This document shows positions 17,931 to 36,817 of a DNA stretch of 42,563 bases, piece by piece. Both the position numbers and the translations under genes were made by a program. This DNA is from Clostridiales bacterium. GTDB taxonomy: Bacteria; Bacillota; Clostridia; Christensenellales; Pumilibacteraceae. The DNA lies in the NCBI GenBank assembly GCA_022508405.1, contig JAFLVI010000007.1:1-42563 (forward strand). The letters run 5' to 3'. The notes below the pieces were generated by a model, which saw only the letters and a list, made by a program, of their open reading frames with translations, was not told where the DNA came from and made no database searches. Each line of letters starts with the position of its first letter. Position 1 is the first letter of the stretch.

Positions 17931-17959
17931 TTGACAAACGCTTGTCAATGCGGTATAAT
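17931..17959 (+). promoter_or_regulatory. Protease-operon promoter P1 with overlapping inverted repeat
   Basis: A perfect -35 TTGACA (17931-17936) and -10 TATAAT (17954-17959) have 17-base spacing. The -35 and spacer contain a 7-bp inverted repeat, TTGACAA-ACGC-TTGTCAA (17931-17948), which would make a natural operator overlapping the -35 box. A transcript from here would have a leader of about 210 bases before the ATG at 18176. Confidence 0.85.
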
Positions 17960-18060
17960 AACAGGTAGCATCTCGGTTTTGGATTAGACAAAGAAGTCTG
18001 CCAACGCCGTTATTGTCGTTTAAGAAATCTTGGGTATATTTATTGCTCGGACAATTAAAC

Positions 18061-18090
18061 TTGACAGATGGGCGGCAGAATTGTTACAAT
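18061..18090 (+). promoter_or_regulatory. Protease-operon promoter P2
   Basis: The -35 TTGACA (18061-18066) and -10 TACAAT (18085-18090) are 18 bases apart, giving a second start about 130 bases after P1 and a leader of about 80 bases. Downstream at 18132-18148 lies the inverted repeat TGTTCG-AATTA-CGAACA, placed where a repressor could block P2 and readthrough from P1. Confidence 0.7.
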
Positions 18091-18175: not shown

Positions 18176-21100
18176 ATGACTAATACAGCTCGAAAGGCAC
18201 TAAACACCAAACTTATATTCATTTTAATCGCAGCGCTGCTGGCGCTGGTTTTAGCGTTGCAGGTCGTGTATGCGCCTATAAATGTATATGCTCCCGACAG
18301 GGGCGGCAACAGCAACACCGCTACTGCCGACAGCATGAACGGTGTATCGGTTAAATATACACCGGCGGAAAACGGATTGCAGGGTGAGGAATACGATTAT
18401 AAGCTTTCCGACGATTCCGCTCGTGCCGCTTCCGCCAAATCCCTGCCTGCACCCAGCAAAAAAGTTGATGTTATTGTGTCGCTCGAGGGCACTTCCATGA
18501 TGGACTATGCGGTAAGCAAGGGCATTAGCGTCGCAAAGGCCATTGCCACCGAGGGCGGACAAAAGAATTTGGAAAACCTGCGCAAAATACGTGAGAGCGC
18601 AATAAACGATTTATCAAAATACATAATAGAAAAGCGTTATGATTACAGCACTGTCATGAACGCGTTTTCCGCTACTGTGCGTTACGGCGATGTTGCCGCC
18701 ATTGAGCGCGATAGCCGTGTTAAAAACGTAATACTTTCGGAAACTTATCTTGCGCCGCAAACCGTCACCGAAAACTACGTTGACGTTTACGAAACGGGTA
18801 TATTCAACTCCGAGGGCGTGGGCTACGACGGAACGGGCACTGTTGTCGCCGTTTTGGATACCGGTACCGACTACACGCACGAAGTATTCGATATGGAACT
18901 TAATGCCGACACGCTTGCAATATCCAAGGACGACGTTGCGGCTGTCGCATCGGCGCTTACGGCTACGTCGCTTTCCGCCGCCGTCGGTGACATTATAGAC
19001 GAAGACGATCTTTACATAAGCTCCAAGCTTCCTTACGCATACGATTATGCGGACAGCGACGCCAATGTTTATCCCAAAGAGGCACACGGTACGCACGTTG
19101 CGGGTATTATCGCCGGCAAGTCCAAAACAATTACAGGCGTTGCAACCGGTGCGCAGATTGCCACTTTTAAGGTTTTCTCCGATTATAATAGCGGCGCTAA
19201 AAGCGAGTGGATTATGGCAGCGCTCAACGATTGCATCACTTTAGGCGTTGACGCCATCAATATGTCGCTTGGCTCGTCCTGCGGTTTTTCGCGCGAGGTG
19301 GACGAGGTTGTTGTAAATGAAGTATACGATTCCATCAATGCTGCCGGCATATGCTTAGTCGTTGCGGCCAGCAACGATGCGTCTTCGGCGCAAAGCAGTA
19401 CTTGGGGCAATACCAACCTTGCCAGCAATCCCGATTCAGGCACGGTCGGCTCGCCCGGGTCGTACAATGCGGCGCTTTCCGTAGGGTCGGTTAGCGGCGT
19501 AAAAACAAAATACTTTATTTCCAACGGAAAGGAAATTTATTTTAACGAGTCGCGTTTGATAGGCAAGACCGAGGCCAACGACTTTGTGGCCGGCATGCTC
19601 GGCAACAAAACGGAAGGAACTTTCGATTATGTCGTAATCCCCGGCGTAGGCATGCCTGTAAACTATAACGGTATAAATGTAGAAGGTAAGGTAGCGGTTG
19701 TCAAGCGCGGACAAACCAACTTTGAAGAAAAGGTGCGCGTTGCCGCCAGCCGCGGCGCCATAGGCGTTATTGTTTACAACAATGTTTCCGGTACAATCAG
19801 CATGTCTGTCGGTACCAAGCTTATAGTGCCCAGCTGCTTTATTACTATGGATCTTGCAAAAGATCTGGTTGCGGCAGGTAGCGGAAAGATCAAACTTTCC
19901 ACTTCCTATCTTGCCGGTCCGTTTATGTCCGACTTTTCAAGCTGGGGTTGCTTGCCCAATCTAATACTTGCACCCGACATCACCGCGCACGGCGGAGAAA
20001 TTTACTCGTCAATCCCCGGCGGCGACCAGTACGATAAGTTCAGTGGTACATCCATGGCTTGTCCCAACCTTGCCGGTGCGCTCATACTGGTGCGTGAGTT
20101 TGTAAAGGAAAAGGAACGTCAGGCGTCCACCATAGCAATTCGCGACGAATCGTACAGCCGCATGATGAGCACTGCTACCATAGTCAAAAACGAGGAAGGC
20201 AATCCGTATTCACCGCGCAAGCAAGGCGCCGGCATTGCCGATATTTCGCATTCTATAAACACAAAGGCGTATCTTACCGTAGACGGTTTGAACAAGCCCA
20301 AGCTCTCGCTCGGCGATGATCCGGAGCGCACGGGCGTATACGAGTTGAAGTTCAATCTTGTCAACGATTCTAATAGTGCAATCAGTTATTCATTCGATCA
20401 GTACGTCATGACGGAGAGCATCTCCAGTGACGACCGAACCGTATCCGAAAAAGCGCATCTGTTTACCGATACCAAAAACACCTATTCCGTTCAACAGAAA
20501 AAAGGTGTAGCAAAGATAAATAACAACACCATTTTGCTCGGTGGCTATGGTGAAGCGGCTATTACGGTAAAAATCGAGCTTTCCGCCGCGGATAAACAGT
20601 ACTTAAACACTCTGTTTATAAACGGTATGTTTGTCGAAGGCTATGTATTGCTTAAGAGCCAAAATACCGACGGAATAGATTTGAACATACCGTACATGGC
20701 GTTTTACGGTGATTGGGCGGACGCACCCATGCTTGACGTAACCGAATACGAGGTGGGCGAATCCGCCGTTGACGATTCCGTTTTGGAAGAAGACAAGCTT
20801 AAAGCCGATGTTCATGCAACGCTTCCGTATTCGGGCTTCTACTCCGCGTGGGGTGTCGATAATATGGGTTATTACGGTATGGGCGCCTATGCGTTTAATA
20901 TCGCCAGCGGGTATAAGACGCCCGTCACGCAGGAAAAATTTGCCGCACTTACCACCAATTCCGACGGCGATTATATGTTGTACATGATAAACGCCGGTCT
21001 TCTGCGTTGTGCAAAACGCGTGGATATGGAAATCCGTAACAGCGCCACCGGCGAACTTGTTTGGTCGGGTGTGGACTACAATGCGCGTAAAAGCCATTCC

Positions 21101-24100
21101 AGCGGCGGCAGTCAGACCGGCGGCATGGTGCTTATAGAGCTTGACATTCGCAAGCTCGATTTACCCAACAATGCCAAGTACACGTTTAGCATGACGTGCT
21201 ATCTCGACTGGAAAAAGGACAACGATTACATCGGCGACTACAGCGACCAAATGGACAAAATGGACGAGTACCAATACGGTAACAAAAACACCTTCTCGTT
21301 TGAGTTCACAATAGATAACGAGGCGCCGCAAATTGCCGGTGCCGCCATACGCAAGGTTGCGTCCGGCAATTCGTACCGTTACTCTTTGGAATTGAGCCTG
21401 TATGACAACCATTACATGCAAGGTTTTGCTCTTTACACATATGGCGGTAAAGAATTGATAAGCGGTTATGAGCGTCTTACCGATGTTACATCGCTCAAAA
21501 ACGGCGTTGTGCCTGTGGACGGCGAGTTCAATTCGGAAACGTTGTGTTCTGTGGATATTTCCGGCTACTGGAATAAAATAATAGAAAACGAAGGCAAGCT
21601 GTATGTCACATTGTACGACTATGCCAAAAATTCTTCTTCGTTCGAGCTTGTTGTAAGCGAAACCGGAGACGATTCGGCAAATCCCGATGCATCGCTTGTG
21701 ATTTCGCCCAAAGAAGATTTGACCATAACCAAAAACCGCAACGTTCGCGATAACTATACGGTAAAAGTAAATGAACAGCTTGACTTTTCTACACTTTTAA
21801 CTGTTCGTGCCAATATCAACGACAAAAATGATTCGGACGCAGTGTATCAAGAAGGATATTGGATGAAAGACCTTATTTGGTCTGTTGACGACAATACCAT
21901 TGTTGATATTACAAACGAAGGTGTTTTGACCGGCTTAAAGGAAGGCGAAACAACTTTATACGTTCGCACACCCAATACAAGCGCATTTGACGAAAACGAT
22001 ACAACGCACTGTCTTAAGTTTGTAATCAAGGTGGAAGGCGTTCAGGCAGGCGGGCTTAAGATTTCCGGTGTGGAGCTTTCCGCAACTGCGCTCAACTTGG
22101 AGCGCGGCGAAACCGCAATCATCACAGCAAAAATAAAGCCTTACGGTTACAGCGAACCGTTTAAGCTAAACTGGACATCCACCGGTGCAACTATTGTTTC
22201 GGTTAGTGTAAACGAAGGCGGTATGTCTGTTGAGATTAAAGCGTTAAAGAGCGGTTCCGCACAAATTCAGGCAAACGTAGTCGGCAGCTACATATCCGGT
22301 TATTGCGACGTTACCGTTCTGCAAGAATTTTTGGTGAACGATAATATTTATCTTCGTTCTTATACCGGACGCGGCGGCGACTGGGTCAACGAAAACGGCG
22401 AGATCGAGCACAATGTTGTGGAAATACCCGATGATTTGGGCGTGTCGTTTATTTATCCCAGTGCATTCTACGGCAACGAATATATAGAAAAGGTAATTAT
22501 TCCGGAAGGTATTACTTCGCTCATGCGTGCGACTTTCTTTAATTGCAGCAACCTTAAAGAAGTCGTCTTGCCGGAATCGCTTACATCGATAGATTATCTT
22601 GCGTTTGCCAACTGCAACAAGCTGGAAAAAATCAATCTCGGACATGTGCAAACTATAGGCGATTCGGCATTCTGGGGTTGTGCTATGGAAGAAATCGATT
22701 TGTCTAAATGTACATACATAGACAAGTACGCATTTGTTTACTGCAACAACCTTAAGACGTTGGATTTGTCGCGTGTCGGTATGATAGGCGGCGGCGCATT
22801 TGCGCATTGCTCCGGCTTAAAGTCGGTTGTTATCCCTGAAAACACTTCAATGGCATACGACACTACGTATTTGCTTAATGGCGGTATCAACCGCGGCGGC
22901 GTGTTTGCATTCTGCACTAACCTTAAAACCGTTACCATCAAATCGCGTACGGTTGGGGAAAGCGCTTTTTACGCCTGCTTGTCGCTGGAAAATGTAATTT
23001 TCGAAAACGACGTAGATGTTATCGATGTAAATGCGTTTGCGCATTGTTACGAGCTTAAAAACGTAACGTTCTACGGCAGTGTGTACAAAATAAGCGATAT
23101 GGCTTTCCTTAGATGCATAGAACTGAAAGAATTCACAATACCCAACGGGCTGACTATTTTGGGCGAAAATGTGTTCTATCTTTGCGACAAGCTGTCCAAG
23201 ATAATCGTTTCTTCAGGCGCTATGCTTGACACCATAGGTACCGGATCGCTCGGCGGACTGGACATAGAGGAGTTTGTTGTTGAGGACGGGAATAAATATC
23301 TTTCCTCCGAGGACGGCGTTTTGTACGACCGCGCAATGAAAAAGCTTATCGCGTATCCCAATGCGAAAATCAATAGTACCGGCGAATTTACTGTTCCCGA
23401 TAAAGTAAGAACAATAGGCGAATCTGCGTTTTCGCGTGTTCGGTCACTCGGTATGATCGATTTAAACAAAGTAGAATACATAGAGGCCGAGGCGTTCTTC
23501 AATATAGTTTATGTCAACGGCAACACCACCGCTTATGTCCAGTTTACCGGTTATAACAATGTCAAGTACATAGGCGCTATGGCATTCTACAGAGCAGTCA
23601 TTACAGCGTTGCCTATATCTCTTAACAACACGACGTATATCGGTGACGGTGCGTTTTATATGGCTTCGCTTTATCAAAACAGCAGTATGCCTGCCAATGC
23701 AACGCTTACCATACCCAAAAATCTCAAGTATCTTGGTGAAAGGGCTTTCTCGGGCGGCGTTCTTGTAACGACCGATGATGAAGAAATTTTGTTCTCATTG
23801 AATATTTCCACAGTCTCGTTTACGCAAAGCTCTATAAAAAGCGTAGGCAAGGGTGCGTTTGCTTACAATCCCTCGCTTACAAAGATTGAATTCGGCAATC
23901 TCGAAGCTATCAGTGAGAGCATGTTTGAAAACTGCGCGTGGACGTCGACGTCTTTGTTTGGCGGAACAAACAAACAGGGCATTAAAGAAGTAAGCATACC
24001 CGACACGATCAAGACGATAGGCAGCAAAGCGTTTAACGGCAACTACCTTCTCTCCAAAGTATCTTTGTCGTCAAATCTTACGAATATTGCGGACAGCGCG

Positions 24101-25660
24101 TTTGCCGGTACTGCAATAACCACTATCAATCTTCCGGACAATATTGTTAGCATAGGCGCAAGCGCGTTTGCGGATTCGCAACTGCAAAGTATCGTTTTAC
24201 CCGAAAAGGTTACGGAAATAGGCAACAATGCGTTTGCCCGCACTCCGTTGACTACAGTCGGATACAAAACGGGCAAAGGCGCGGTTAAATCAATAGGCAA
24301 CGGTGCGTTTAGAAATTGCGATAAGCTTACAAACGCGCAGTTCCCGTATGCCGAAACCATAGGCAACAATGCTTTCAACGGCTGCAAATTGCTCGACCAA
24401 ATCGACTTTAGTTCGGCAAAAACAATAGGCACCGCCGCATTTGCCGGTTGTGAAGCATTGGATGCAATAACGCTTAATAAAGTGGAAACTATCGGCGAAC
24501 GTGCATTTGAGGGCGCAACCAATGTTACGTCCGTCACAATGCCTATGATCAAAAAGATTGGCGGGGAAGCGTTTAGCGGCACGGCTATTACAACCGTTTC
24601 TCTTCCCGAGGGCTTTACCACTGCGGAAGATAAGGCATTCTACGGTGCGAATATGCTTTCCTCAATAACAGTTGCCGCAAACAACAAAACTTATAAGAGC
24701 ATGGACGGCGTGCTTTACAGTGTAAATGACAAGGGTATGTACACCTTGGTCAGCTATCCTGCGTGTAAGACGGACATAACAGATTATACCGTCTATAATA
24801 AGACAATCAAGCTTAGCGCGTACGCATTTAACGGCAACACCACGCTTGAGAGCATTACGTTGCCTGTTTACTTGCAGGTGATAGGAATGTCTGCTATGAG
24901 CGGAATGACAAGTCTGACAAAGCTTACAATCAATGCCGTAAATGCGCCTACGCTGGAAAGCTATGCGTACATGGTTTATCCGGAAATCGACGATGACGAA
25001 TCGGACAGCGGCAATGCGGACAGCGATGTTGTAGGCGATGACGATGTAGAAAACGACAACGAAATTGTCAACAGAAACGACGGTGTGTTTACCAACTTCT
25101 ACGACAACTTCAACTTCGCCTTTGAGGACGCGGATAAGGAGCAGCAGCTTAAAATATATATTCCGTACAACAACAGCGGGTATTATGAAAACCGCATCTG
25201 GAAGCTGTATGTCGGCAGATGTCTTAACACTACAGACAAGGTTCACGCAACACTCGGCACACTTCAGGTAATAGAAAACATCAAGACCGAGCTTGCAAAA
25301 ACCACTCATGACCAAAACAATATAAAACGTCTCCTTAACATAGTTAGAAACATCAACGTTGTTCAGCAACAGCTTATTTACGGCAATTACGATTACGAGG
25401 TTAAGGATAACAGCGGAACAACCGTTGCTACAATAGATAAGGCGTATTACAACGACATGCTTGAGGGTAAAAACTTCTATCAAGCATTGTCGGCGCTTCA
25501 AGGTCAGACGTCGGCATCTGCAGCTTTTGCCGATGGTCAGTACGGAATAGCGGCATTAAAAGGCGATGCCGGAATTGTATCTGTTGTAATTATTACGACG
25601 CTTTGTCTTGTGTTTGTAATAACCTTGATTACATTTTGTGCGAAAAGGAGGGGACGCTAA
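18176..25660 (+). CDS. Giant membrane-anchored subtilisin-like protease with leucine-rich-repeat array
   Basis: This is a 2494-residue surface protein. The start is ATG 18176 with GAGAGG; an upstream in-frame ATG at 18068 lies inside promoter P2. A signal sequence spans about residues 10-33. The S8 catalytic triad is Asp228 (VLDTGTD), His304 (HGTHVAG) and Ser626 (SGTSMACP), with oxyanion Asn400; a protease-associated domain (about 500-570) is inserted before Ser, as in C5a-peptidase-like cell-envelope proteases. A beta-sandwich region follows, then a BIG2 domain (about 1290-1380). BspA-type LRR_5 repeats (IGDSAFWGC-like) run from about 1415 to 2260, interrupted once. The end has an Asp-rich stretch, helices, a membrane helix (about 2466-2486) and KRRGR. 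No LPXTG is seen, so the helix itself probably anchors it. First gene of the protease-Opp operon; the LRRs probably bind protein or host ligands. Confidence 0.9.
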   Translation: MTNTARKALNTKLIFILIAALLALVLALQVVYAPINVYAPDRGGNSNTATADSMNGVSVKYTPAENGLQGEEYDYKLSDDSARAASAKSLPAPSKKVDVIVSLEGTSMMDYAVSKGISVAKAIATEGGQKNLENLRKIRESAINDLSKYIIEKRYDYSTVMNAFSATVRYGDVAAIERDSRVKNVILSETYLAPQTVTENYVDVYETGIFNSEGVGYDGTGTVVAVLDTGTDYTHEVFDMELNADTLAISKDDVAAVASALTATSLSAAVGDIIDEDDLYISSKLPYAYDYADSDANVYPKEAHGTHVAGIIAGKSKTITGVATGAQIATFKVFSDYNSGAKSEWIMAALNDCITLGVDAINMSLGSSCGFSREVDEVVVNEVYDSINAAGICLVVAASNDASSAQSSTWGNTNLASNPDSGTVGSPGSYNAALSVGSVSGVKTKYFISNGKEIYFNESRLIGKTEANDFVAGMLGNKTEGTFDYVVIPGVGMPVNYNGINVEGKVAVVKRGQTNFEEKVRVAASRGAIGVIVYNNVSGTISMSVGTKLIVPSCFITMDLAKDLVAAGSGKIKLSTSYLAGPFMSDFSSWGCLPNLILAPDITAHGGEIYSSIPGGDQYDKFSGTSMACPNLAGALILVREFVKEKERQASTIAIRDESYSRMMSTATIVKNEEGNPYSPRKQGAGIADISHSINTKAYLTVDGLNKPKLSLGDDPERTGVYELKFNLVNDSNSAISYSFDQYVMTESISSDDRTVSEKAHLFTDTKNTYSVQQKKGVAKINNNTILLGGYGEAAITVKIELSAADKQYLNTLFINGMFVEGYVLLKSQNTDGIDLNIPYMAFYGDWADAPMLDVTEYEVGESAVDDSVLEEDKLKADVHATLPYSGFYSAWGVDNMGYYGMGAYAFNIASGYKTPVTQEKFAALTTNSDGDYMLYMINAGLLRCAKRVDMEIRNSATGELVWSGVDYNARKSHSSGGSQTGGMVLIELDIRKLDLPNNAKYTFSMTCYLDWKKDNDYIGDYSDQMDKMDEYQYGNKNTFSFEFTIDNEAPQIAGAAIRKVASGNSYRYSLELSLYDNHYMQGFALYTYGGKELISGYERLTDVTSLKNGVVPVDGEFNSETLCSVDISGYWNKIIENEGKLYVTLYDYAKNSSSFELVVSETGDDSANPDASLVISPKEDLTITKNRNVRDNYTVKVNEQLDFSTLLTVRANINDKNDSDAVYQEGYWMKDLIWSVDDNTIVDITNEGVLTGLKEGETTLYVRTPNTSAFDENDTTHCLKFVIKVEGVQAGGLKISGVELSATALNLERGETAIITAKIKPYGYSEPFKLNWTSTGATIVSVSVNEGGMSVEIKALKSGSAQIQANVVGSYISGYCDVTVLQEFLVNDNIYLRSYTGRGGDWVNENGEIEHNVVEIPDDLGVSFIYPSAFYGNEYIEKVIIPEGITSLMRATFFNCSNLKEVVLPESLTSIDYLAFANCNKLEKINLGHVQTIGDSAFWGCAMEEIDLSKCTYIDKYAFVYCNNLKTLDLSRVGMIGGGAFAHCSGLKSVVIPENTSMAYDTTYLLNGGINRGGVFAFCTNLKTVTIKSRTVGESAFYACLSLENVIFENDVDVIDVNAFAHCYELKNVTFYGSVYKISDMAFLRCIELKEFTIPNGLTILGENVFYLCDKLSKIIVSSGAMLDTIGTGSLGGLDIEEFVVEDGNKYLSSEDGVLYDRAMKKLIAYPNAKINSTGEFTVPDKVRTIGESAFSRVRSLGMIDLNKVEYIEAEAFFNIVYVNGNTTAYVQFTGYNNVKYIGAMAFYRAVITALPISLNNTTYIGDGAFYMASLYQNSSMPANATLTIPKNLKYLGERAFSGGVLVTTDDEEILFSLNISTVSFTQSSIKSVGKGAFAYNPSLTKIEFGNLEAISESMFENCAWTSTSLFGGTNKQGIKEVSIPDTIKTIGSKAFNGNYLLSKVSLSSNLTNIADSAFAGTAITTINLPDNIVSIGASAFADSQLQSIVLPEKVTEIGNNAFARTPLTTVGYKTGKGAVKSIGNGAFRNCDKLTNAQFPYAETIGNNAFNGCKLLDQIDFSSAKTIGTAAFAGCEALDAITLNKVETIGERAFEGATNVTSVTMPMIKKIGGEAFSGTAITTVSLPEGFTTAEDKAFYGANMLSSITVAANNKTYKSMDGVLYSVNDKGMYTLVSYPACKTDITDYTVYNKTIKLSAYAFNGNTTLESITLPVYLQVIGMSAMSGMTSLTKLTINAVNAPTLESYAYMVYPEIDDDESDSGNADSDVVGDDDVENDNEIVNRNDGVFTNFYDNFNFAFEDADKEQQLKIYIPYNNSGYYENRIWKLYVGRCLNTTDKVHATLGTLQVIENIKTELAKTTHDQNNIKRLLNIVRNINVVQQQLIYGNYDYEVKDNSGTTVATIDKAYYNDMLEGKNFYQALSALQGQTSASAAFADGQYGIAALKGDAGIVSVVIITTLCLVFVITLITFCAKRRGR

Positions 25661-27159
25661 TGAAAAAGCTTAGAATTGCGGCAATATGTATACTTGCAGT
25701 TCTTGCGGTATTTGCCTTTGGTGCATGTAGCAGCAAAAAATCCCCCAAAATGTATACCGTTACTTTTAATACAATGGGCGGATCTGCGGTATCTTCCTAC
25801 AAACTGGAGGCCGGCAAAAAAATCACTCGTCCCAAGACAATTCCCACAAAGGAAATGTTTGTATTTGATGATTGGTATTGGGAAAATCCCAAAAAGGCCG
25901 GCGAAATACAAAAGTTTGTATTCGGCACCAAGATATCACAGAACATTACGTTATTTGCGGGCTGGATAGGCGAGACAAGCGTAAAAATAGACTTCGATCC
26001 CAACGGCGGAGCATTTGAAAACGATAAGGAAGTCTCACTATACGGGCTTATCGGCGCTCAAATGACAGAACCTGAGGATGTGCCTACTCGCACAGGATAC
26101 GTCTTTGACGGCTGGTATACGGAAGAGGAGTGCTACAACAAGTTCCCGTTTAGTGTGTTCCCCTCGGATAATGCCACGCTGTATGCAGGCTGGGCAAGGG
26201 ACACCGAGAATTATGTGTTTATTTCGTACTACGGCAACGATGAGTTATTGCTAGTCGAGCCTGTGGAAAAAGACGAAGACGTTGTTTTGCCCGATTTATT
26301 CGATGCGGACAGCGATATTGTTACAACCGGTTGGTTTGTGGACAACAATCCCAACAGACCTTATACATTCGGCAAAGCCACAGTCGATTTGGACTTATAT
26401 ACCGATTATTATACCAACGGCTTGGTGTTTAGCAGTTCTACAAGGTACAGCACGGTTGCCGGTTATGAAGGCACTGCCACCAAGGTGATTGTTCCGCCTG
26501 CTTACGGCGGCAAACCGGTTACTGCCATCGGCGATGACGCGTTTTACAGAACGGGGGAACTCCCTTCGATAAAATCTGTATCGCTTCCAGACAGCATAAC
26601 CACAATAGGCGACAGAGCTTTTTACAACTGTCAGTACCTTGCGTCAATCAATTTAACAGACAACGTTACTCATATCGGCGAAAACGCATTTTACCGTAAC
26701 ACACGGCTAAGGACGGTAGGCGATATTACCGGTGTTATGGGCGAAGGGCTTGGAGCCGGTGCGTTCAACGGCTGTAGCGATTTGCGCCAAATCGAACTTG
26801 GCAACGGATTGACAAAGATATCGGATTATACGTTTAACGACTGTTCGGCACTCAACCAAATAACACTGTCCGGCGCGTTAAAGGGTATAGGTAATTATGC
26901 ATTCAGCGGTTGCACATCGCTTAAGTCCATCGAGATCGAATCTTCGGTTTTGGAGACAATAGGCGATTACGCATTTGCGGACTGTTCCGCCCTTGTGGAT
27001 GTTACGATTGCAAAGGAAAGTGCCGCGGTTACGCTTGGCGGCAACGCATTTTTAAACAGCCGCAACGTTACAATCTATGTTCCGTCCAATCTTCTTGATG
27101 CTTACAAAAACAACGCAACCAACAACAAATTCAAGGATAAATTTGCAGCGATAAGGTAG
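25660..27159 (+). CDS. InlB-repeat and leucine-rich-repeat surface lipoprotein
   Basis: This encodes a 499-residue lipoprotein. The ATG at 25660 shares a base with the protease stop (TAATG) and follows AAAAGGAGGGG, so translation is coupled to the protease. The signal peptide MKKLRIAAICILAVLAVFAF ends at lipobox GAC, with Cys23. Two InlB/Listeria-Bacteroides repeats follow (about residues 33-105 and 107-180; YTVTFNTMGG..., IDFDPNGGAF...FDGWYTEEE...TLYAGW), a degenerate third near 185-245, then about seven BspA-type LRR_5 repeats (260-480; ITTIGDRAFYNCQ, ISDYTFNDCSAL). No enzyme motif is present. It shares both module types with neighbours, suggesting a membrane-tethered binding partner of the protease. 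Such modules are known for adhesion; the ligand is unknown. Confidence 0.85.
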   Translation: MKKLRIAAICILAVLAVFAFGACSSKKSPKMYTVTFNTMGGSAVSSYKLEAGKKITRPKTIPTKEMFVFDDWYWENPKKAGEIQKFVFGTKISQNITLFAGWIGETSVKIDFDPNGGAFENDKEVSLYGLIGAQMTEPEDVPTRTGYVFDGWYTEEECYNKFPFSVFPSDNATLYAGWARDTENYVFISYYGNDELLLVEPVEKDEDVVLPDLFDADSDIVTTGWFVDNNPNRPYTFGKATVDLDLYTDYYTNGLVFSSSTRYSTVAGYEGTATKVIVPPAYGGKPVTAIGDDAFYRTGELPSIKSVSLPDSITTIGDRAFYNCQYLASINLTDNVTHIGENAFYRNTRLRTVGDITGVMGEGLGAGAFNGCSDLRQIELGNGLTKISDYTFNDCSALNQITLSGALKGIGNYAFSGCTSLKSIEIESSVLETIGDYAFADCSALVDVTIAKESAAVTLGGNAFLNSRNVTIYVPSNLLDAYKNNATNNKFKDKFAAIR

Positions 27160-27163
27160 ACAA

Positions 27164-28666: not shown

Positions 28667-28688
28667 TTTATGTTAACTAGGAGGTAAT

Positions 28689-31295
28689 ATGAAAATCTCG
28701 TTTAAAAAGACTCTTGCAAAAATGTTATGCCTTACAATGGGCGTCAGCTCTATGGCTGCGCCGCTAATCGGTTGCGGTCAAAAATCGACCACGCCCGTCT
28801 TGCTGCTTGCAACAGACGCGTTGGATACCGTATTCAACCCGTTCTTTTACACATCGGGTCCGGACGGTGAAATAGTAGGTCAGACTCAAATCGGCATGCT
28901 TTCCAGTGACAAAAACGGCCAGCTGATAGCCAACTGGAACGAACCGTGCGTTGCGTTTGAATGGAGTTATGTAAAGCACGGCGATCCGTCTATGGTGCAG
29001 GGCAATGATTACGGTGATTACTATACAGATTATTACTTTGCGTTAAAGGACAATATCAAGTTCAGCGACGGCGTACTACTTACCAAGGACGACGTGTTGT
29101 TCAATATGTATATGTATCTCGATCCCGCTTACACCGGTTCTAACACGATGTATTCGGTCAAGATTGACGGCCTTACGGAATACCGCACGCAGACTGCCGA
29201 TTTGGATAACGCCGCCGGTGCCGACCAATATTTCCAAAACAAAGTAGAGGGCAGACTTAAAAAGATTTTGGCATGGGTAGAGGACGAAGACGCACCGTGG
29301 GGTGACGCCGGATTTTCCCAATACGAATATTATCCCGGCGAAAAAACGCTTGAAAGCGATATAAAAAGAATTCAAGAGTACTACAAGACCTCGCTTAGCG
29401 AAACTTGGACGTCCGTTATTTCCGCCGATATCGAAAAGGAGTACGAAAAGTACAAGGGTTCGGACGGCAAACTGCTTATTACCGAGCCGTATCAGCTTTT
29501 CCTGTATTATTACGGCATAGTTAATTTACGCGAACACCGCGTCAGTACTTCCACCGGCAGTGTAGTCGACTATTACGAATACGAAAATAATTTCCCGCAA
29601 AAGGATATTCCCAACAAAAAAGACGACAGAAAGAGCAATAAGTTTAGGGATACGCTTATAAATTACGTATATAACGGAAAGTTTGACGCAACGGAACAGG
29701 CTAATGCCACGAATGGATTCAGACAAAATCTTTATGATGTAATGAATTCCTATCCTGTAAATGCGTATATGGAGGAGTATTTGCTGTCCGACGTTAAATA
29801 CCGTGAATTTAAGAACAACATGCAAGTAAAATCAATCCGCGGTATTACGGTGGAAAAGCAAGACACAATAAAAGTTGTCGATGAAAATACGGGTAATGTA
29901 GTAGAAAAACCGTTAAAAGACGCCGCAGGCAATCCCAAGTCGTACTACGTTTTGCATGTCAAGATAAAGGGTGTAGACCCCAAGGCACAGCAAAACTTTG
30001 CGTTTACCGTCGCCCCCGGTCACTACTATTCCACCAAGGAAGAATGGGCTAAAGCTACAGGCGACAACGATAAGGATAACGAGTTTTTCGGCGTAAAATT
30101 CTCCGACCCTTCGTTTATGGATTCGGTCAGAGTCAAGCAACTGCCTTTGGGTGCGGGACCTTACCGTGCGGCTAAAAGCACTGGCGGCGTAGCAACAAAG
30201 AAGAGCGACTTCTTTGGCTCCAACAATATCGTCAACTTCGAGGCAAATCCCAACTTCTTATTGGGTAAACCCAAAATCAAAAAGCTTCGCTATAAAGTTA
30301 TAAGCAGTTCCCAGCTGTATAATGCTGTTAAGAAAGGCGAGGTTGACTATGCGTCTCCTTCCATGAAGAGAGAGGAGATTACCCAGCTTGCAAAAGACGC
30401 AGGAAAGTTAAGTTCGGAAAGTGCGGATAATCTCGGTTACGGCTATATCGGCATAAGCGCGCGTTACATTCCCAATATCTATATTCGTAAAGCCATTATG
30501 ACAACGCTCGATTCCCAGATGTGTATTGATTCATACTACGGTGGAGAGGGCGGCTCGGTAATAACAAGACCGATGTCCAAGACTCTTGAGGGTTATTACT
30601 TGGATTGGGATGCGTATTATGAATTTGACGATACAGGTGCGAAGGCAAAAGAGTTTTTGGAAGACGGCGGTTGCCGCTATGAAAACGGCGTTTATTTAGA
30701 CGAAACTGGGAAAAAGATGAAGTACACGTTTACCATTGCCGGCGACAGCGACGATCACCCCGCAAACTACATGCTTTTACGGTCTGCGGAAATCCTTAAC
30801 GATTTAGGTTTGGAGATTACGGTCACGCACGACTCAATGGCGCTTTCCAAGCTGTCCAGCGGATTGCTTACCGTATGGGCTGCTGCGTGGAGCTCTTCGT
30901 CCGATCCCGATATGTTCCAAGTTTATCACAAAAATTCACAGGCAACAAGCACAACCGCATGGGGCTACAAATACATATTCAGCAGTCAGTTCCAAGAGTT
31001 GGAGCCGAAAAACAACAAGCTAGGTTACGATCAACGTAAGATGATAGACGAGCTTTCCGCTTTGATTGACGACGGCAGAGAAACCGATGTAAAGGAAGAG
31101 CGTATAGAAATTTACGACCAAGCTATGGATAAGCTTATGGATCTTGCGGTGGAATTCCCCACATACCAGAGAAAGGTTTTCTATATCTGGAGAAAAGGCG
31201 TGTTTAAGGAAAAGACCATGCTTCGCGGCACAGGCAACGTTACGACCTATCAGTCGCCGCTTTCAAGAATTTGGGAAGTGGAACTAGCTAAATAA
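28689..31295 (+). CDS. oppA: Oligopeptide ABC transporter substrate-binding lipoprotein, enlarged
   Basis: This 868-residue lipoprotein belongs to the SBP_bac_5 family that delivers peptides to the Opp/Dpp permease. The lipobox is PLIGC, with Cys29. The family core is present: LKDNIKFSDGVLLTKDDVLFNMYMYLDP (about 115-145), GAGPYRA (about 488), the IRKAIMTTLD block (about 600) and the C-terminal AAWSSSSDPDMF region (about 736). It is some 250-300 residues longer than usual OppA, mainly from an acidic insertion at about 165-380 between the first two lobes' motifs. A strong ribosome site (AGGAGG) precedes the ATG. Being in one unit with a surface protease, it probably binds its products; a wider cleft for longer peptides is speculation. 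Confidence 0.9.
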   Translation: MKISFKKTLAKMLCLTMGVSSMAAPLIGCGQKSTTPVLLLATDALDTVFNPFFYTSGPDGEIVGQTQIGMLSSDKNGQLIANWNEPCVAFEWSYVKHGDPSMVQGNDYGDYYTDYYFALKDNIKFSDGVLLTKDDVLFNMYMYLDPAYTGSNTMYSVKIDGLTEYRTQTADLDNAAGADQYFQNKVEGRLKKILAWVEDEDAPWGDAGFSQYEYYPGEKTLESDIKRIQEYYKTSLSETWTSVISADIEKEYEKYKGSDGKLLITEPYQLFLYYYGIVNLREHRVSTSTGSVVDYYEYENNFPQKDIPNKKDDRKSNKFRDTLINYVYNGKFDATEQANATNGFRQNLYDVMNSYPVNAYMEEYLLSDVKYREFKNNMQVKSIRGITVEKQDTIKVVDENTGNVVEKPLKDAAGNPKSYYVLHVKIKGVDPKAQQNFAFTVAPGHYYSTKEEWAKATGDNDKDNEFFGVKFSDPSFMDSVRVKQLPLGAGPYRAAKSTGGVATKKSDFFGSNNIVNFEANPNFLLGKPKIKKLRYKVISSSQLYNAVKKGEVDYASPSMKREEITQLAKDAGKLSSESADNLGYGYIGISARYIPNIYIRKAIMTTLDSQMCIDSYYGGEGGSVITRPMSKTLEGYYLDWDAYYEFDDTGAKAKEFLEDGGCRYENGVYLDETGKKMKYTFTIAGDSDDHPANYMLLRSAEILNDLGLEITVTHDSMALSKLSSGLLTVWAAAWSSSSDPDMFQVYHKNSQATSTTAWGYKYIFSSQFQELEPKNNKLGYDQRKMIDELSALIDDGRETDVKEERIEIYDQAMDKLMDLAVEFPTYQRKVFYIWRKGVFKEKTMLRGTGNVTTYQSPLSRIWEVELAK

Positions 31296-31326
31296 TAGTC
31301 CGATTGACTACGACTAAAGGTAAAAA

Positions 31327-32310
31327 ATGGTTAAGTACATCTTAAAAAGAGTAATATACTCCATACTGATTTTGTTGCTGGTATCATTGCTGTTGTACCT
31401 GATTATGCGTATGCTGCCCAACGACTTTGTTGACAAAACATACGAATCTCAGTTGAATAGCGGTGTTATGACAAAGGAAGACCTGCATCGAATAAAGGAA
31501 ACGCTAGGTATTGCCGATAACTCCTTTAAAGGCATAATGAGGGGTTACGGAGATTGGCTTAAAAACGCACTCCGCGGCGACTTAGGCTTGTCGTTAAAAT
31601 ATCAAGCGCCGGTCGGACAGGTTATTTCCGACCACATGTGGATATCGTTTGGCATTGCCATGTTTGCGTTTATCTTCCAGTTTATCATTGCCATTCCGCT
31701 TGGCATAAAGGCTGCAACACATCAGTACGGTGCGGTGGACTACACAACGTCCGTTTTGGCAATGGTAGGCATTTCCTTGCCGTCCTTCTTTTTGGCATAC
31801 CTGTTAATGCGCGTTTTATCAATCGAATTAGGGTGGTTCCCGTTGCAGGGTATAGATTCCGGACGCGGGAGCGGGTTTGACCTAGGCGATCTTCTTTGGC
31901 ATATGGTCTTGCCCATGTTGACTATTATTATCGGTTCGATAGGCGGACTTATGCGTCACACGCGTACCAACACGCTTGAGGTGCTCAATCAGGACTATGT
32001 GCGCACTGCGCGTGCAAAGGGACTGTCGGAACGCAAGGTTGTATACAAGCATGTGTTCCGTAACACAATGGTTCCCATTGTCACCATGACGGCGGGTATT
32101 ATCCCGGGACTTTTCGGCGGCATGATGATATTGGAAAAAGTTTTTGCCATAGACGGCATAGGAAGAATTGCATACGAAGCAATGGGCGTGGGAGATTTTC
32201 CGCTTGTTATGGGGTACAATATGTTTATTTCCATACTTACGGTGCTCGGCACATTGCTTTCCGACCTTGCTTACATGCTGGTTGACCCCAGAATAAAGAT
32301 TTCAAAATAG
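31327..32310 (+). CDS. oppB: Oligopeptide ABC transporter permease
   Basis: This 327-residue inner-membrane protein has the BPD_transp_1 pattern. The N-terminal KYILKRVIYSILILLLVSLLLYL helix is followed by an extracellular loop, then helices around 105-130, 140-165, 185-210, 245-270 and 295-315. The EAA loop that docks on the ATPases is visible as VRTARAKGLSERKVVYKHVFRNTMVPIVT (about 220-248). Size and layout match OppB/DppB. It pairs with OppC to form the peptide pore, with OppA delivering substrate. It lies 31 bases after oppA and ten bases before oppC. Confidence 0.94.
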   Translation: MVKYILKRVIYSILILLLVSLLLYLIMRMLPNDFVDKTYESQLNSGVMTKEDLHRIKETLGIADNSFKGIMRGYGDWLKNALRGDLGLSLKYQAPVGQVISDHMWISFGIAMFAFIFQFIIAIPLGIKAATHQYGAVDYTTSVLAMVGISLPSFFLAYLLMRVLSIELGWFPLQGIDSGRGSGFDLGDLLWHMVLPMLTIIIGSIGGLMRHTRTNTLEVLNQDYVRTARAKGLSERKVVYKHVFRNTMVPIVTMTAGIIPGLFGGMMILEKVFAIDGIGRIAYEAMGVGDFPLVMGYNMFISILTVLGTLLSDLAYMLVDPRIKISK

Positions 32311-32320
32311 GCGGTGTATT

Positions 32321-33508
32321 GTGGAAGAAAATAAACAAGAAATTCTTAATAACGCCGCCGAAATCGAGCAAAGTCCCGTTTCGGATATACAGCCCGATAT
32401 GAATGCTGCGGATACTGCGGCTGCAGTGGCCGTTTCCCAACAGGAAAAAGCCCCGCAAAAAGAAAAAACAAGCGAGTTTATTTCGGACAACGTCAGGATT
32501 GTTTCGCCGTTTAAGCTTGTTCTAAAGCGGTTTTTCAGATCGCGGCTTTCCGTTATCGGACTTATAATGTTCCTTTCCGTTGTTGTTTTCTCCTTTTTGG
32601 GACCCGTTTTTGTTCCTTGGGGAGAGAAGGAAATAGACCGTTCTCAATCGTACCGTACATATTACGATATCTCATCCCTTTATTCGGTAGTAGACGAAGA
32701 AGGCAATGAGTTGTTTACGTATTACACCTTTTCGGTAAGCAGACCGGAAAACCTTAATATTTACGCGCCGTCGTTTACGTACGGCATAAACAAGCAAGGC
32801 AAAAGGGCGCTTCATCTATTCGGTACGGACGGCACAGGCTACGACATTCTTGTAAGACTTATGTACGGCGGACGGCTTTCGCTCATGCTAAGCTTTTTGG
32901 TCGTTTTGGTCTATACTCTTATAGGTATTATAATGGGCGGACTTGCCGGCTACTTCGGCGGCTGGGTTGATATGCTTATAATGCGGCTTGTGGATATAAT
33001 TAACTGCTTGCCGTCTTTACCGCTTATGCTCATTTTGGGCGCAGTTTTTGACGGATGGCATGTAAGCCCCAATTTGCGCGTATATTTTATGATGGGCGTG
33101 CTTACATTGATGAGTTGGTCGGGTACTGCCAGACTTGTGCGCGGACAAATTTTGACATTGCGCGAGCAGGAGTATATGGTGGCTACCGATGCGCTTGGAT
33201 TCAGCCCTTGGCGAAAGATATTTAAGCATTTGGTGCCAAACGTCATGCCGCAGCTGATTGTTTCCATGACGCTCGGACTGGGCGGAACAATACTGACCGA
33301 AGCGTCGCTCAGCTTTTTGGGCCTTGGCGCACCGCCCGATGTTGCGTCACTGGGAAGAATGGTCAACGCGGCGGAAAGTCAAACTGTACTTGAAAAATAT
33401 ACTATGGCATGGTTGCCGGCGGGATTGATAATTATTCTTGCGGTTGTTGCCTTCAACTTTATCGGTGACGGATTGCGCGATGCGCTTGATCCCAAGATGA
33501 AGAGGTGA
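32321..33508 (+). CDS. oppC: Oligopeptide ABC transporter permease, extended N-terminus
   Basis: This 395-residue permease has the OppC features FRSRLSVIGLIMF at the first helix (about 68-90) and the EAA docking loop TDALGFSPWRKIFKHLVPNVMPQLI (about 288-312). It starts with GTG at 32321. It is about 90-100 residues longer than typical OppC, from an N-terminal acidic, Gln/Ala-rich tail (residues 1-55) and a longer external loop between the first and second helices (about 95-165: EKEIDRSQSYRTYY... SFTYGINKQGKRALHLFG). The external loop could contact the large OppA or the surface lipoproteins, which is inference. It forms the pore with OppB. Confidence 0.93.
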   Translation: MEENKQEILNNAAEIEQSPVSDIQPDMNAADTAAAVAVSQQEKAPQKEKTSEFISDNVRIVSPFKLVLKRFFRSRLSVIGLIMFLSVVVFSFLGPVFVPWGEKEIDRSQSYRTYYDISSLYSVVDEEGNELFTYYTFSVSRPENLNIYAPSFTYGINKQGKRALHLFGTDGTGYDILVRLMYGGRLSLMLSFLVVLVYTLIGIIMGGLAGYFGGWVDMLIMRLVDIINCLPSLPLMLILGAVFDGWHVSPNLRVYFMMGVLTLMSWSGTARLVRGQILTLREQEYMVATDALGFSPWRKIFKHLVPNVMPQLIVSMTLGLGGTILTEASLSFLGLGAPPDVASLGRMVNAAESQTVLEKYTMAWLPAGLIIILAVVAFNFIGDGLRDALDPKMKR

Positions 33509-33512
33509 TGCA

Positions 33513-35285
33513 ATGGAAGAAAAACAAGAAAAAAAGAAGGGCGGTAACCGCATAAAAGCGTGGTACAGACGCGTCACGCATAAGGACGATCCCCATTATA
33601 TTTCCGGCAAAGAACAGCGCAAAATCGCCAAAGACAATCGTAAAGCGACGCGCGAGTTCGAAAAGAAAAAACGCAGAAATGTTTCCGAATCGGATTATAT
33701 TTCCCAAATGCGCGACAATAACAACATTTTGGAAATAGATAATCTTTGCACGTATTTCTTTACCGATGCCGGCGTTTCCAAAGCGGTGGACGGCGTTTCG
33801 TTTGACATTCCCAAAAGCTCTATTGTGGGCGTAGTAGGCGAAAGCGGTTGCGGCAAGTCCGTTACTTCGCTTTCCGTTATGCAACTTGTTCAAGCGCCGC
33901 AGGGTCAGATTGTCGACGGTTCTATACGGTTTAACACTCAAGACTACAAAAAGGGCGAGGACGGCAAGCCCATTCCCATCTGGGAATACGAAGAAGTAGA
34001 CGGGCAACGTGTAATCAAAACAGCGCCTAAGCTCGACAAAAAGGGTAAGCCCGTGCTCGACAAGGACGGCAAGCCCGTTTTGGTTCAGGTTCAGGCGGTG
34101 GACGGCAACGGATTTCCCGCATTCGAAATGGAGGATAAGGTTTTTGACATTGCCAAAATGCCTACGCGTGCTATGCAACGCATACGCGGCAAGGAAATTG
34201 CAATGATTTTTCAAGAACCCATGACAAGCCTTAATCCGCTATTTACCATAGGTAACCAGTTGGACGAGGTTGTTTTGCTCCACACCCCCGGCGCGGATAA
34301 GGCGCTTGCGCACAAGCGCACAATAGAAATGTTGGGACTTGTCGGAATAGCCATGCCCGATATAGTCTACAAAAGATATCCGCATGAGCTGTCCGGCGGT
34401 ATGCGTCAGCGCGTGATGATAGCTATGGCCCTTGCGTGCAATCCCAAGCTGATTGTCGCAGACGAGCCGACTACGGCGCTTGACGTTACAATTCAGGCTC
34501 AGGTTTTGGAGCTTCTTAAGGAAATCAAGACTAAAATCAACGGTTCTATCATGATAATAACGCACGACTTGGGCGTTATTGCCGGCATGGCGGACTACGT
34601 TGTTGTTATGTACGCAGGGCGCGTGATAGAAAAGGGCACGGTGGAGGACATTTTTGACACTCCGTTGCACCCTTACACTGTGGGATTGCAAAAGAGCAAG
34701 CCCGTTATGAACAAGGACGTGGAATGGCTGTACAGCATTAAAGGTCAGGTCCCCAATCCTATCAATATGCCCAAATATTGCTATTTTAAGGATCGCTGTG
34801 AAAGCTGTGTTGAATGCTGCAACGGCGAGTATCCGCCGCTTGTAAAGGTGTCCGATACGCATTACGTGGCGTGTTACCGCGGCGAAGAAATGATGGCGGC
34901 GTTAAAAGCTAAGGCTGAAGAACAAAAAGCACAGGCGGATAATGACGCTTTGGGCGTCGAAAATGCGGAACAGGCGGCTTCGGACGAACAGGCCGCAACA
35001 CTTGAGACCGATAAAAAGAAAAAGACAAAGTCCGCCAAAACCAAATCGAAGCACGCAGAGCCCAAGGTGGTTATCGCCACCAAAAAGCCTGCAAAAAAGT
35101 CGAGCACAACTAAGGCTAAGACCGCTACTGCTGCCAAGACAAATGTTGCCGCTACAGCTAAGGCAAAGACATCCGCTTCGGCTAAGCCTGCCGCCAAGTC
35201 AAGCGGCACAAAAAAGGCTTCAACAAGCAAGTCAACTACCAAAAAAAGCCCGCAGAGTAAGTCCGGCGAGAAGGAGAATAAGTAA
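33513..35285 (+). CDS. oppD: Oligopeptide ABC transporter ATPase with H1-like tail
   Basis: This 590-residue ATPase energises the peptide importer. Walker A GESGCGKS is at 109-116, the Q-loop at IFQEPMTSLNP (about 232), signature LSGGMRQR at 293-300, Walker B LIVADEPT at 313-320, and the H-loop in ITHDLGV (about 350). The OppD/F C-terminal Cys-rich motif follows (YCYFKDRCESCVECC). Three oddities: a basic N-terminal extension of about 70 residues; a 60-residue insertion between the Walker A domain and Q-loop (about 145-210) with an imperfect KKGKPVL/KDGKPVL duplication; and a C-terminal tail of about 130 residues made almost only of Lys, Ala, Ser and Thr. The final stop overlaps the oppF start (TAATG). 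Confidence 0.94.
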   Translation: MEEKQEKKKGGNRIKAWYRRVTHKDDPHYISGKEQRKIAKDNRKATREFEKKKRRNVSESDYISQMRDNNNILEIDNLCTYFFTDAGVSKAVDGVSFDIPKSSIVGVVGESGCGKSVTSLSVMQLVQAPQGQIVDGSIRFNTQDYKKGEDGKPIPIWEYEEVDGQRVIKTAPKLDKKGKPVLDKDGKPVLVQVQAVDGNGFPAFEMEDKVFDIAKMPTRAMQRIRGKEIAMIFQEPMTSLNPLFTIGNQLDEVVLLHTPGADKALAHKRTIEMLGLVGIAMPDIVYKRYPHELSGGMRQRVMIAMALACNPKLIVADEPTTALDVTIQAQVLELLKEIKTKINGSIMIITHDLGVIAGMADYVVVMYAGRVIEKGTVEDIFDTPLHPYTVGLQKSKPVMNKDVEWLYSIKGQVPNPINMPKYCYFKDRCESCVECCNGEYPPLVKVSDTHYVACYRGEEMMAALKAKAEEQKAQADNDALGVENAEQAASDEQAATLETDKKKKTKSAKTKSKHAEPKVVIATKKPAKKSSTTKAKTATAAKTNVAATAKAKTSASAKPAAKSSGTKKASTSKSTTKKSPQSKSGEKENK

Positions 35286-36502
35286 TGTCGGAAGAAACTA
35301 TCGAAGTAAAAAACAACGAGGCGGCGCAAGACGATTATATTTTGGAAGTTTGCAACTTAAAGAAATACTTTTTAACCAAAAAGGAATTTAAGTTTGTAAA
35401 AGTACCGGTGGAAAATAATTCCAAATCGACCTCTACAGCTATGCAGGACGCCGCAAACTCCGTTGAAAGTCAAGAAAGCAACAGAGATGTTGTCTCGCCC
35501 GAAATTCCCGTAGAAAAATCCGATGTTCTGCCCGAGACGAACGTCGACGAAGAACAGAGTTCCAAACCGAAAAAAGATCACAAAATCAAGTTGATTCTTG
35601 ACAAAACTTATGTTAAGGCGGTTAACGACGTCAGCTTTAAGGTGAAGCGCGGAGAAACGCTCGGCATAGTAGGCGAAAGCGGTTGCGGCAAGAGTACTAT
35701 GGGCAGGAGCATTCTCAGGCTGTTTGATATCACGGACGGCAAGGTGTTTTTTGAAGGAACGGAGATTACCGCATTAAAGCCGAGAGAACTGCGCAAATTT
35801 CGCACCAAAATGCAAATTATTTTTCAGGACCCGTACGGCAGTTTGCCGCCGCGCAGTCCTGTCGGTCAGATTATAGGCGAAGCGGTCAAGGTCCACAAAA
35901 TAGTCCCTAAGTCCGAGTACCGCGACTATGTTATAGATATCATGCGCAAGTGCGGCTTGCAGGACTTTTACTTTGACAGATATCCGCACGAGTTTTCCGG
36001 CGGACAACGCCAGCGTATTTGTATAGCAAGAGCTTTGGCGGTTAAGCCCAAATTTGTCGTCTGCGACGAGCCGGTTTCGGCATTGGACGTTTCCATTCAA
36101 GCGCAGGTTATCAATCTGTTAAAGGAATTGCAGCGCGATCTTGGCTTGACATATCTGTTCATATCGCACGACTTGAGCGTTGTTCAGCACATTTCGGACC
36201 GCGTTGGCGTTATGTATCTGGGTCAGTTTGTCGAGATGGGTGACGAAAAGGATATTTTCAATAACCCCATGCATCCGTATACTCACGCGCTTTTATCCGC
36301 CGTGCCCGTGCCCGATCCGCATTACAAGGGTAAGCGTATTGTACTACAGGGCGACATACCAAGCCCCGCCAATCCGCCTTCGGGTTGCAAGTTCCACACG
36401 CGCTGCTCGCGGTGCATGGAAGTGTGCAAGCATGTGCAACCTAAGTTTAAGGACTACGGCAATGGGCACATGTGCGCATGTCATCTGTATCCGCAGGATT
36501 GA
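35285..36502 (+). CDS. oppF: Oligopeptide ABC transporter ATPase
   Basis: This 405-residue ATPase is the partner of OppD. Walker A GESGCGKS is at 130-137, the Q-loop IFQDPYGSLPPR, signature FSGGQRQR (in place of the usual LSGGQRQR), Walker B VVCDEPVSALD, and ISHDLSV for the H-loop. The C-terminal oligopeptide motif CKFHTRCSRCMEVC is present. The first domain is split by a low-complexity acidic insertion at about 40-103 (QESNRDVVSPEIPVEKSD...). The ATG overlaps the oppD stop. With oppD the importer has both ATPase halves, so the system is complete. Confidence 0.94.
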   Translation: MSEETIEVKNNEAAQDDYILEVCNLKKYFLTKKEFKFVKVPVENNSKSTSTAMQDAANSVESQESNRDVVSPEIPVEKSDVLPETNVDEEQSSKPKKDHKIKLILDKTYVKAVNDVSFKVKRGETLGIVGESGCGKSTMGRSILRLFDITDGKVFFEGTEITALKPRELRKFRTKMQIIFQDPYGSLPPRSPVGQIIGEAVKVHKIVPKSEYRDYVIDIMRKCGLQDFYFDRYPHEFSGGQRQRICIARALAVKPKFVVCDEPVSALDVSIQAQVINLLKELQRDLGLTYLFISHDLSVVQHISDRVGVMYLGQFVEMGDEKDIFNNPMHPYTHALLSAVPVPDPHYKGKRIVLQGDIPSPANPPSGCKFHTRCSRCMEVCKHVQPKFKDYGNGHMCACHLYPQD

Positions 36503-36511
36503 GGAAAGACT

Positions 36512-36772
36512 TTGGGAAAGAACAAAAAAAAGTATGCCGATGACGACGGCAGAACCATAGCGGATATGAACGTGGACGGCATGCCGTGGTATCAGCGCAA
36601 CAAGCCGGACAAAAAGATTACCGATGAGGATAAGCCCACGCGCAAGGAAAGGCATGCCATGATGCGAGCTTGGTTTTCCGTATATCTGCCGCGAATACTT
36701 GCAATAGTCGTTGGTTTTGGGCTTGCTGCTGCCGTTACGGTGTGTTGGCTTAACGGTTGGTTTGTAAAATAG
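36512..36772 (+). CDS. Small single-pass membrane protein at the end of the Opp operon
   Basis: This 86-residue protein begins with TTG at 36512, with AGGAAAG upstream. The N-terminal half is very charged and includes YADDDGRTIADMNVDGMPWY, a sequence I recall from unnamed small Clostridial proteins, and is followed by KKITDEDKPTRKERHAMMRAWF. One membrane helix spans about residues 60-82. The orientation would be N-in. It is nine bases after oppF and immediately before a terminator, so it closes the operon. It may be an accessory or stability factor of the permease, but function is unknown. Confidence 0.7.
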   Translation: MGKNKKKYADDDGRTIADMNVDGMPWYQRNKPDKKITDEDKPTRKERHAMMRAWFSVYLPRILAIVVGFGLAAAVTVCWLNGWFVK

Positions 36773-36787
36773 ACAAAAATATGTATT

Positions 36788-36817
36788 AAAAGACAGAGTA
36801 TGCACTCTGTCTTTTTG
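36788..36817 (+). terminator. Terminator of the protease-Opp operon
   Basis: AAAAGACAGAGT (36788-36799) and ACTCTGTCTTTT (36804-36815) form a perfect 12-bp stem around ATGC, followed by T. I see no other strong hairpin-plus-T-run between 18176 and here, which supports a single unit. Confidence 0.9.

Follow-up and report, generated by a model that had tools for sequence, protein, structure and literature searches.

A leucine-rich-repeat subtilase and an oligopeptide-type importer share a conserved gene block in gut Clostridia, probably for protein harvest

Nine genes lie head to tail on one strand at positions 18176–36772 of contig JAFLVI010000007.1 from a Clostridiales bacterium of the family Pumilibacteraceae (assembly GCA_022508405.1; the whole 42,563-nucleotide stretch analysed is called the window). 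They encode a very large subtilase that carries leucine-rich repeats (LRRs), two lipoproteins, the five components of an oligopeptide (Opp)-type importer and a small protein. The observation of this nine-gene block is confirmed, and its genes are inherited as a block among many related genomes. The sequences and their linkage make it probable, in our view, that the block is an operon for protein harvest, i.e. a dedicated system for cutting proteins and importing the resulting peptides.

The open reading frame (ORF) coordinates agree with the layout described in the initial annotation: the gaps between genes are 4, 22, 31, 10, 4 and 9 bases, and the two remaining junctions are one-base stop/start overlaps (TAATG at 25658–25662 and 35283–35287). 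A purine-rich stretch was seen by eye 5′ of every one of the nine genes, with AGAGG upstream of the gene 1 start at 18176. The block is preceded by a promoter (TTGACA-17-TATAAT; 17931–17959, + strand) that matches the σ70 consensus at 12 of 12 positions, with both hexamers identical in the window and four relatives. The terminator placed at 36788 by the initial annotation was found downstream of the last gene as a 12-pair stem with a T tail (36788–36815, + strand). Between 17500 and 37400, pattern matches to promoters (34, against 31.8 in shuffled sequences) and terminators (28, against 26.1) were at chance level, so that strong internal ones are not indicated, in a scan that cannot exclude either. 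At the level of sequence signals the block thus has the tight same-strand spacing, single promoter and single terminator of one operon, and we infer that the nine genes are co-transcribed.

Gene 1 (18176–25660, + strand) encodes a subtilase of the cell-envelope-proteinase type with 2494 amino acids, consisting of a catalytic domain with a PA insert and an fn3_5 domain, a BspA-type LRR array, a C-terminal membrane helix and a short basic tail (KRRGR). Pfam assigns Peptidase_S8, PA (PF02225), fn3_5 (PF06280) and, in eight stretches, LRR_5, with PF02225 and PF06280 above their cut-offs. The proposed fusion of a subtilisin to an LRR array with a C-terminal helix is borne out. The predicted catalytic triad, Asp228, His304 and Ser626, lies within the expected motifs, and all non-gap residues agree in an alignment of 63 non-identical homologues (60, 60 and 61 residues, respectively). 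The list of solved structures nearest to the catalytic half is led by C5a peptidase, chemokine protease C and cell envelope proteinase A, and lactococcal PrtP is 29% identical over ∼760 residues; together with the S8 triad, the PA insert and the Fn3-like domain, these closest solved relatives place the protein among the cell-envelope proteinases. The best NCBIfam match, NF040553 (residues 94–859), reaches 252 bits against a cut-off of 1400. By eye the protease has no LPXTG sortase anchor, which is usual, not universal, for cell-envelope proteinases (S8 enzymes of the lactocepin/C5a peptidase type); the helix and KRRGR stand in its place. Compared with five close relatives, residues 201–700 are 82–94% identical per hundred residues and residues 1401–1500 are 88% identical, whereas within the LRR array residues 1501–2300 are 58–76% identical. 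As side observations, the protease genes of loci L055 and L061 each contain one in-frame TAG, at different sites, for which assembly error, decay and recoding are candidates, and loci L105, L106, L127 and L132 encode, just 5′ of the protease, a protein of ∼1500 residues that is absent from the window; a scan of that in L106 shows a lipoprotein carrying InlB-type repeats.

The initial annotation had set conservation of the gene order in related genomes beforehand as a test that could refute it, and the linkage of protease and importer proved to be widely kept. Of the 74 genomes of the family, 43 have a match to the protease; protease and importer are linked in 31, apart in two and undecidable in ten (G008, G017 and G020 have no match to the OppA of the window, and G065 looks apart). 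In the 31 linked genomes OppA is on the same contig and strand as the protease, downstream of it in 26 and upstream in five. Across the order (396 genomes, family included), a protease match at 1e-40 was obtained in 109 genomes and an OppA match at 1e-20 in 113. Among the matches listed, 85 genomes have placed matches to both genes, and in 78 of these the two lie on one contig and strand within a limit of 15 kb, no more than 14.2 kb apart, with opp downstream in 69, upstream in eight and in both arrangements in one; since related genomes are not independent, separate confirmations are fewer than 78. Random placement in a 1.8 Mb genome would link less than 1%, as a rough estimate. The 24 OppA genomes for which no place is listed were left unscored, although one of them (G070) is linked, and 24 of the 109 protease genomes have no OppA match or an unplaced one only. 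In two of the seven unlinked genomes, again among the matches listed, the genes are apart (G050 and G054), G025 fits a contig break, and the loci of G189, G271, G289 and G372 were not read. Many families of the order show the linkage. Adjacent genes of the system are separated by median gaps of −4 to 63 bases, except for 178 bases between protease and lipoprotein 2 where the two adjoin (measured from the first possible start codon). Furthermore, an SBP_bac_5 protein, the family to which OppA belongs, was found in 41 of 43 protease carriers of the family versus eight of 31 non-carriers (p = 2e-10, kinship ignored) and, counted by genus, in 10/10 carriers versus 4/8 non-carriers (p = 0.02).

Two gene orders were recognized. 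In type I the order is protease, an optional LRR lipoprotein, lipoprotein 2, OppABCDF and the small gene; in type II it is lipoprotein 2, OppABCDF, in some cases the small gene, and the protease, followed by other lipoproteins. Both systems occur on one contig of G357 (C2, loci L162–L165), with proteases ∼31 kb apart. In trees of 66 loci (53 type I and 13 type II) type II forms a single split with a support of 1.0 for the protease as well as for OppA, and the distance matrices of the two proteins correlate with r = 0.92, a value that none of 999 permutations attained; ten named records of genomes already in the sample were left out of the trees and of the lipoprotein 2 count given below. DnaG served as a control within the genus of the window: its identity to the window is 61–69% in four type II species and 69–88% in ten type I species (69–74% in eight of the ten), with the fragmentary DnaG of the type II genome G018 left out. 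For the protease the corresponding values are 68–85% for type I and 43–46% for type II, and some members of other families reach 52–60%. Because protease identity drops far more than DnaG identity in type II, shared species history alone is insufficient to explain the pattern, and the whole block seems to move or to be replaced as a unit.

The two lipoproteins differ in their modules and in their constancy. Lipoprotein 1 (25660–27159, + strand) combines InlB-type repeats with a BspA-type LRR in Pfam and NCBIfam scans (Flg_new in two stretches, and LRR_5), and is the optional LRR lipoprotein of type I. Lipoprotein 2 (27164–28666, + strand), the neighbour of OppA, has an InlB-type N-terminal part, with sub-threshold Flg_new as its only Pfam match, and a weakly GLUG/M26_N-like C-terminal part. 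The modules first attributed to both lipoproteins therefore hold in part: the LRR is common to the protease and lipoprotein 1, and lipoprotein 2 lacks it. A profile built from 25 sequences, several of which are among the loci counted, detects lipoprotein 2 in 65 of 65 linked loci. It is the called gene directly before OppA in 57 and adjoins OppA by its coordinates in seven more, where the ORF picker chose an overlapping ORF; the remaining locus is L066. In the two genomes that carry the protease elsewhere, lipoprotein 2 likewise stands before OppA. Since lipoprotein 2 stands beside OppA both in every linked locus and where the protease is apart, the most constant unit is lipoprotein 2 plus opp, of which the LRR protease is a regular companion.

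The importer claimed by the initial annotation is complete, with all five parts above Pfam cut-offs: the solute-binding lipoprotein OppA, enlarged to 868 amino acids (28689–31295; SBP_bac_5), the permeases OppB (31327–32310) and OppC (32321–33508; one BPD_transp_1 each) and the ATPases OppD (33513–35285) and OppF (35285–36502; ABC_tran plus oligo_HPY each), all on the + strand. The permeases score below the NCBIfam oligopeptide cut-offs, OppB with 232 (Opp4B) against 450 and OppC with 309 against 350. OppA is the sole SBP_bac_5 protein found in the genome of the window (a 1.51 Mb assembly, 82% complete), and the linked OppA is the sole one found in 25 of the 31 linked genomes of the family (two pieces of one SBP_bac_5 gene at contig ends in G062 were counted once). 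OppD has an insert, ∼80 residues long, behind Walker A and ends in a basic tail of low complexity. The insert, rich in charged residues, also occurs in L055, L065, L148 and L151 and is shorter in the type II loci L142 and L144; the tail is long only among close relatives. Four loci of one genus (L065, L151, L152 and L153) have an extra N-terminal part of ∼400 residues on OppD with many hydrophobic helices, which in L153 has no Pfam match, and the type II OppF at 8178–10220 of L143 has zinc-ribbon domains inside an N-terminal extension. Charge-paired cytoplasmic tails joining the protease to OppD or OppF were considered and dropped, as neither the position nor the sign of the tails is constant and they show no clear complementarity.

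If the block is a protein-harvest operon, anatomy and linkage suggest an order of capture, cutting, binding and import. The membrane-anchored subtilase would hold or position an extracellular protein by means of its leucine-rich solenoid, assisted in the species of the window by lipoprotein 1, and would cut it near the membrane; lipoprotein 2 may act as an accessory subunit by guiding or presenting peptides, and OppA would bind the released oligopeptides for import by OppBCDF. That the protease feeds the importer, that the proteins make contact and that the LRRs and lipoprotein 2 have ligands of this kind is likewise what we infer. The functional tie between protease and importer that the initial annotation drew thus stands in part, supported by the conserved linkage, by block inheritance and by the finding, in most linked family genomes, of no SBP_bac_5 protein other than OppA. 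A more ambitious version, to which we lean less than to its negation, is that the LRR protease joins lipoprotein 2 and the enlarged OppA in a surface machine above OppBC, which would capture, cut and take in protein without losing peptides to others. Lipoprotein 2 would then be a new Opp subunit of constant occurrence, and the machine would exist in two subtypes of gene order within an order of bacteria from animal guts.

Several observations weigh against a protein-harvest operon. In G050 and G054 the protease and opp are in separate places, at least four genomes match OppA strongly but lack a match to the protease, and a minority of loci have ∼180–400 bases after the protease, which is space for another promoter. 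Additionally, 20 loci from 18 genomes, in this order and others of the class, were read in which the protease matches and OppA had not been placed. Fifteen of them hold relatives of the protease that are LRR-less, in the sense that BLAST at 1e-6 finds no match to the LRR part of the window protease; no OppA was found in the stretches read, and this result speaks for the protein-harvest reading. Of the five LRR-bearing loci, L198 reaches a contig edge within lipoprotein 2 and L200 ends at an edge, both right after the protease. The exceptions, which count against the reading, are L194, L195 and L199, where OppA was not found within the stretch read, which in L195 reaches the contig edge ∼2 kb after the protease, as several of the 20 stretches reach theirs. 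Three of those stretches have ATPase-like matches to OppF, which were assumed to be unrelated. Lastly, OppA scores 89 against an NCBIfam oligopeptide cut-off of 650; because it is so far below, its cargo, which we take to be oligopeptide, is deduced from its domains.

The chief rival is that the block consists of co-regulated, mechanically independent surface genes, with the LRR protease acting as an adhesin or host-factor protease and Opp serving general peptide nutrition. The nearest solved relatives of the protease, C5a peptidase and chemokine protease C, agree with such a role, as do the below-threshold score of the LRR part against the model of the streptococcal LRR adhesin HupY and the two genomes that carry protease and opp apart. 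We nevertheless regard it as unlikely, since the linkage persists through a change of gene order and whole-block replacement, and OppA is so often the only SBP_bac_5 protein found in linked genomes. It is much less probable that the protease releases another cargo, such as a metal complex, haem or a glycopeptide from a host protein; the distance of OppA from curated peptide models and the matches of five of 23 OppA relatives to TIGR04028, with one weak match to CntA, point that way, but for all 23 Opp4A is the best-scoring or first-ranked model, at scores below its cut-off, and the best solved match of OppA is the oligopeptide-binding AppA. Equally improbable is peptide signalling, in which the protease would trim a signal peptide or shed surface fragments and uptake would inform the cell: Opp importers in Bacilli do take in signal peptides, and a regulatory role is conceivable for the small gene and the leader hairpin, but no peptide-receptor regulator lies within the block (a genome-wide search for one was not made) and an LRR protease of 2494 residues seems large for such a task. 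Chance or assembly error is ruled out by the presence of the same block in many genomes, and plasmid origin by the 78 matching plasmid records, none of which covers 80% of the query; the eight matches listed are from Lactococcus at ∼29% identity, seven with an annotated prtP under the match.

The remaining features flank these genes. The ninth gene (36512–36772, + strand) encodes a small one-helix protein without a Pfam match, in which aligned relatives share the motif DDGRTI..MN.DGMP.Y. Its profile is positive in 27 of 65 loci; many of the 65 stop short of where the gene usually lies. The gene accompanies the system and shifts between positions after OppF, before lipoprotein 2 and before the type II protease. 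Hairpins 3′ of it were also seen by eye in L039, L041 and L048. Directly 3′ of the promoter is a conserved leader hairpin (17974–18009, + strand), to which no role is assigned, described from pattern matches in relatives and a consensus fold of six sequences. It is present in the window and six close relatives with at most three mismatches to the pattern, which has a single match in the genome of the window; its base pairs are nearly invariant and covariation is therefore little informative. A known leader RNA was ruled out, as Rfam gave no match at E up to 1. An alternative in-frame ATG lies at 18068, and the sequence from there to 18176 reads as a conserved leader, the length of which varies among relatives. 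Upstream of the promoter is a tRNA-Leu gene that has a separate hairpin and T run.

Little has been published on how these gut Clostridia feed, and nothing on their use of protein was found in the open-licence literature. Named relatives include Candidatus Gallimonas, and Anaerocaecibacter muris CLA-AA-M11, of the same genus as the window (NCBI family Pumilibacteraceae), came from a mouse faecal suspension according to PMC12802175; its loci L106 and L039 have the gene order of the window. If the protein-harvest reading is true, then for many of these species the block would be the chief or sole Opp-type route for peptides that was found, and a named protease would be tied to a named importer in the cultured A. 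muris, making protein use directly testable. Lipoprotein 2 would represent an accessory lipoprotein family without a name, and the fusion of a cell-envelope proteinase to an LRR solenoid is a feature whose presence tracks the importer.

The closest functional parallel is casein use in lactococci, where the sortase-anchored PrtP feeds OppABCDF. The comparison drawn in the initial annotation is apt at the domain level, given the solved relatives and the alignment to PrtP: both proteases are surface subtilases of the cell-envelope-proteinase type, but that of the window has BspA-type LRRs added, and its gene forms a head-to-tail row with those of two repeat lipoproteins and of opp. On plasmid p267A prsA is beside prtP, and among the genes listed in its incomplete gene table there is no opp gene within 20 kb. 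In the literature, prtP and the opp cluster are named as separate components of proteolysis (PMC7358451), PrtP and Opp as separate, often plasmid-borne dairy traits (PMC13335696) and proteinase and Opp are mentioned in different contexts (PMC6218691). Within the titles and opening lines of abstracts of the open-licence PMC literature, no report was found of this gene block or of an LRR-bearing cell-envelope proteinase in an operon with Opp. Streptococcal C5a peptidase and chemokine protease C, the closest solved structures to the catalytic half, are known for cutting host immune proteins; the LRR array and Opp linkage are additional in the window. The LPXTG-anchored serine peptidases SGO_0316/SGO_0317 (NF040553) are the best NCBIfam match, yet far below cut-off, and in place of their anchor the window protease has a helix and a basic tail. 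Surface proteins with BspA-type LRRs or InlB repeats have LRR_5 and Flg_new modules in common with the window proteins; here, in contrast, a protease carries the LRR array as a fusion, and InlB-type lipoproteins adjoin an importer. SusCD loci apply a logic of capture to glycans, and the surface machine tentatively proposed above would follow a like logic for protein, and in Gram-positives.

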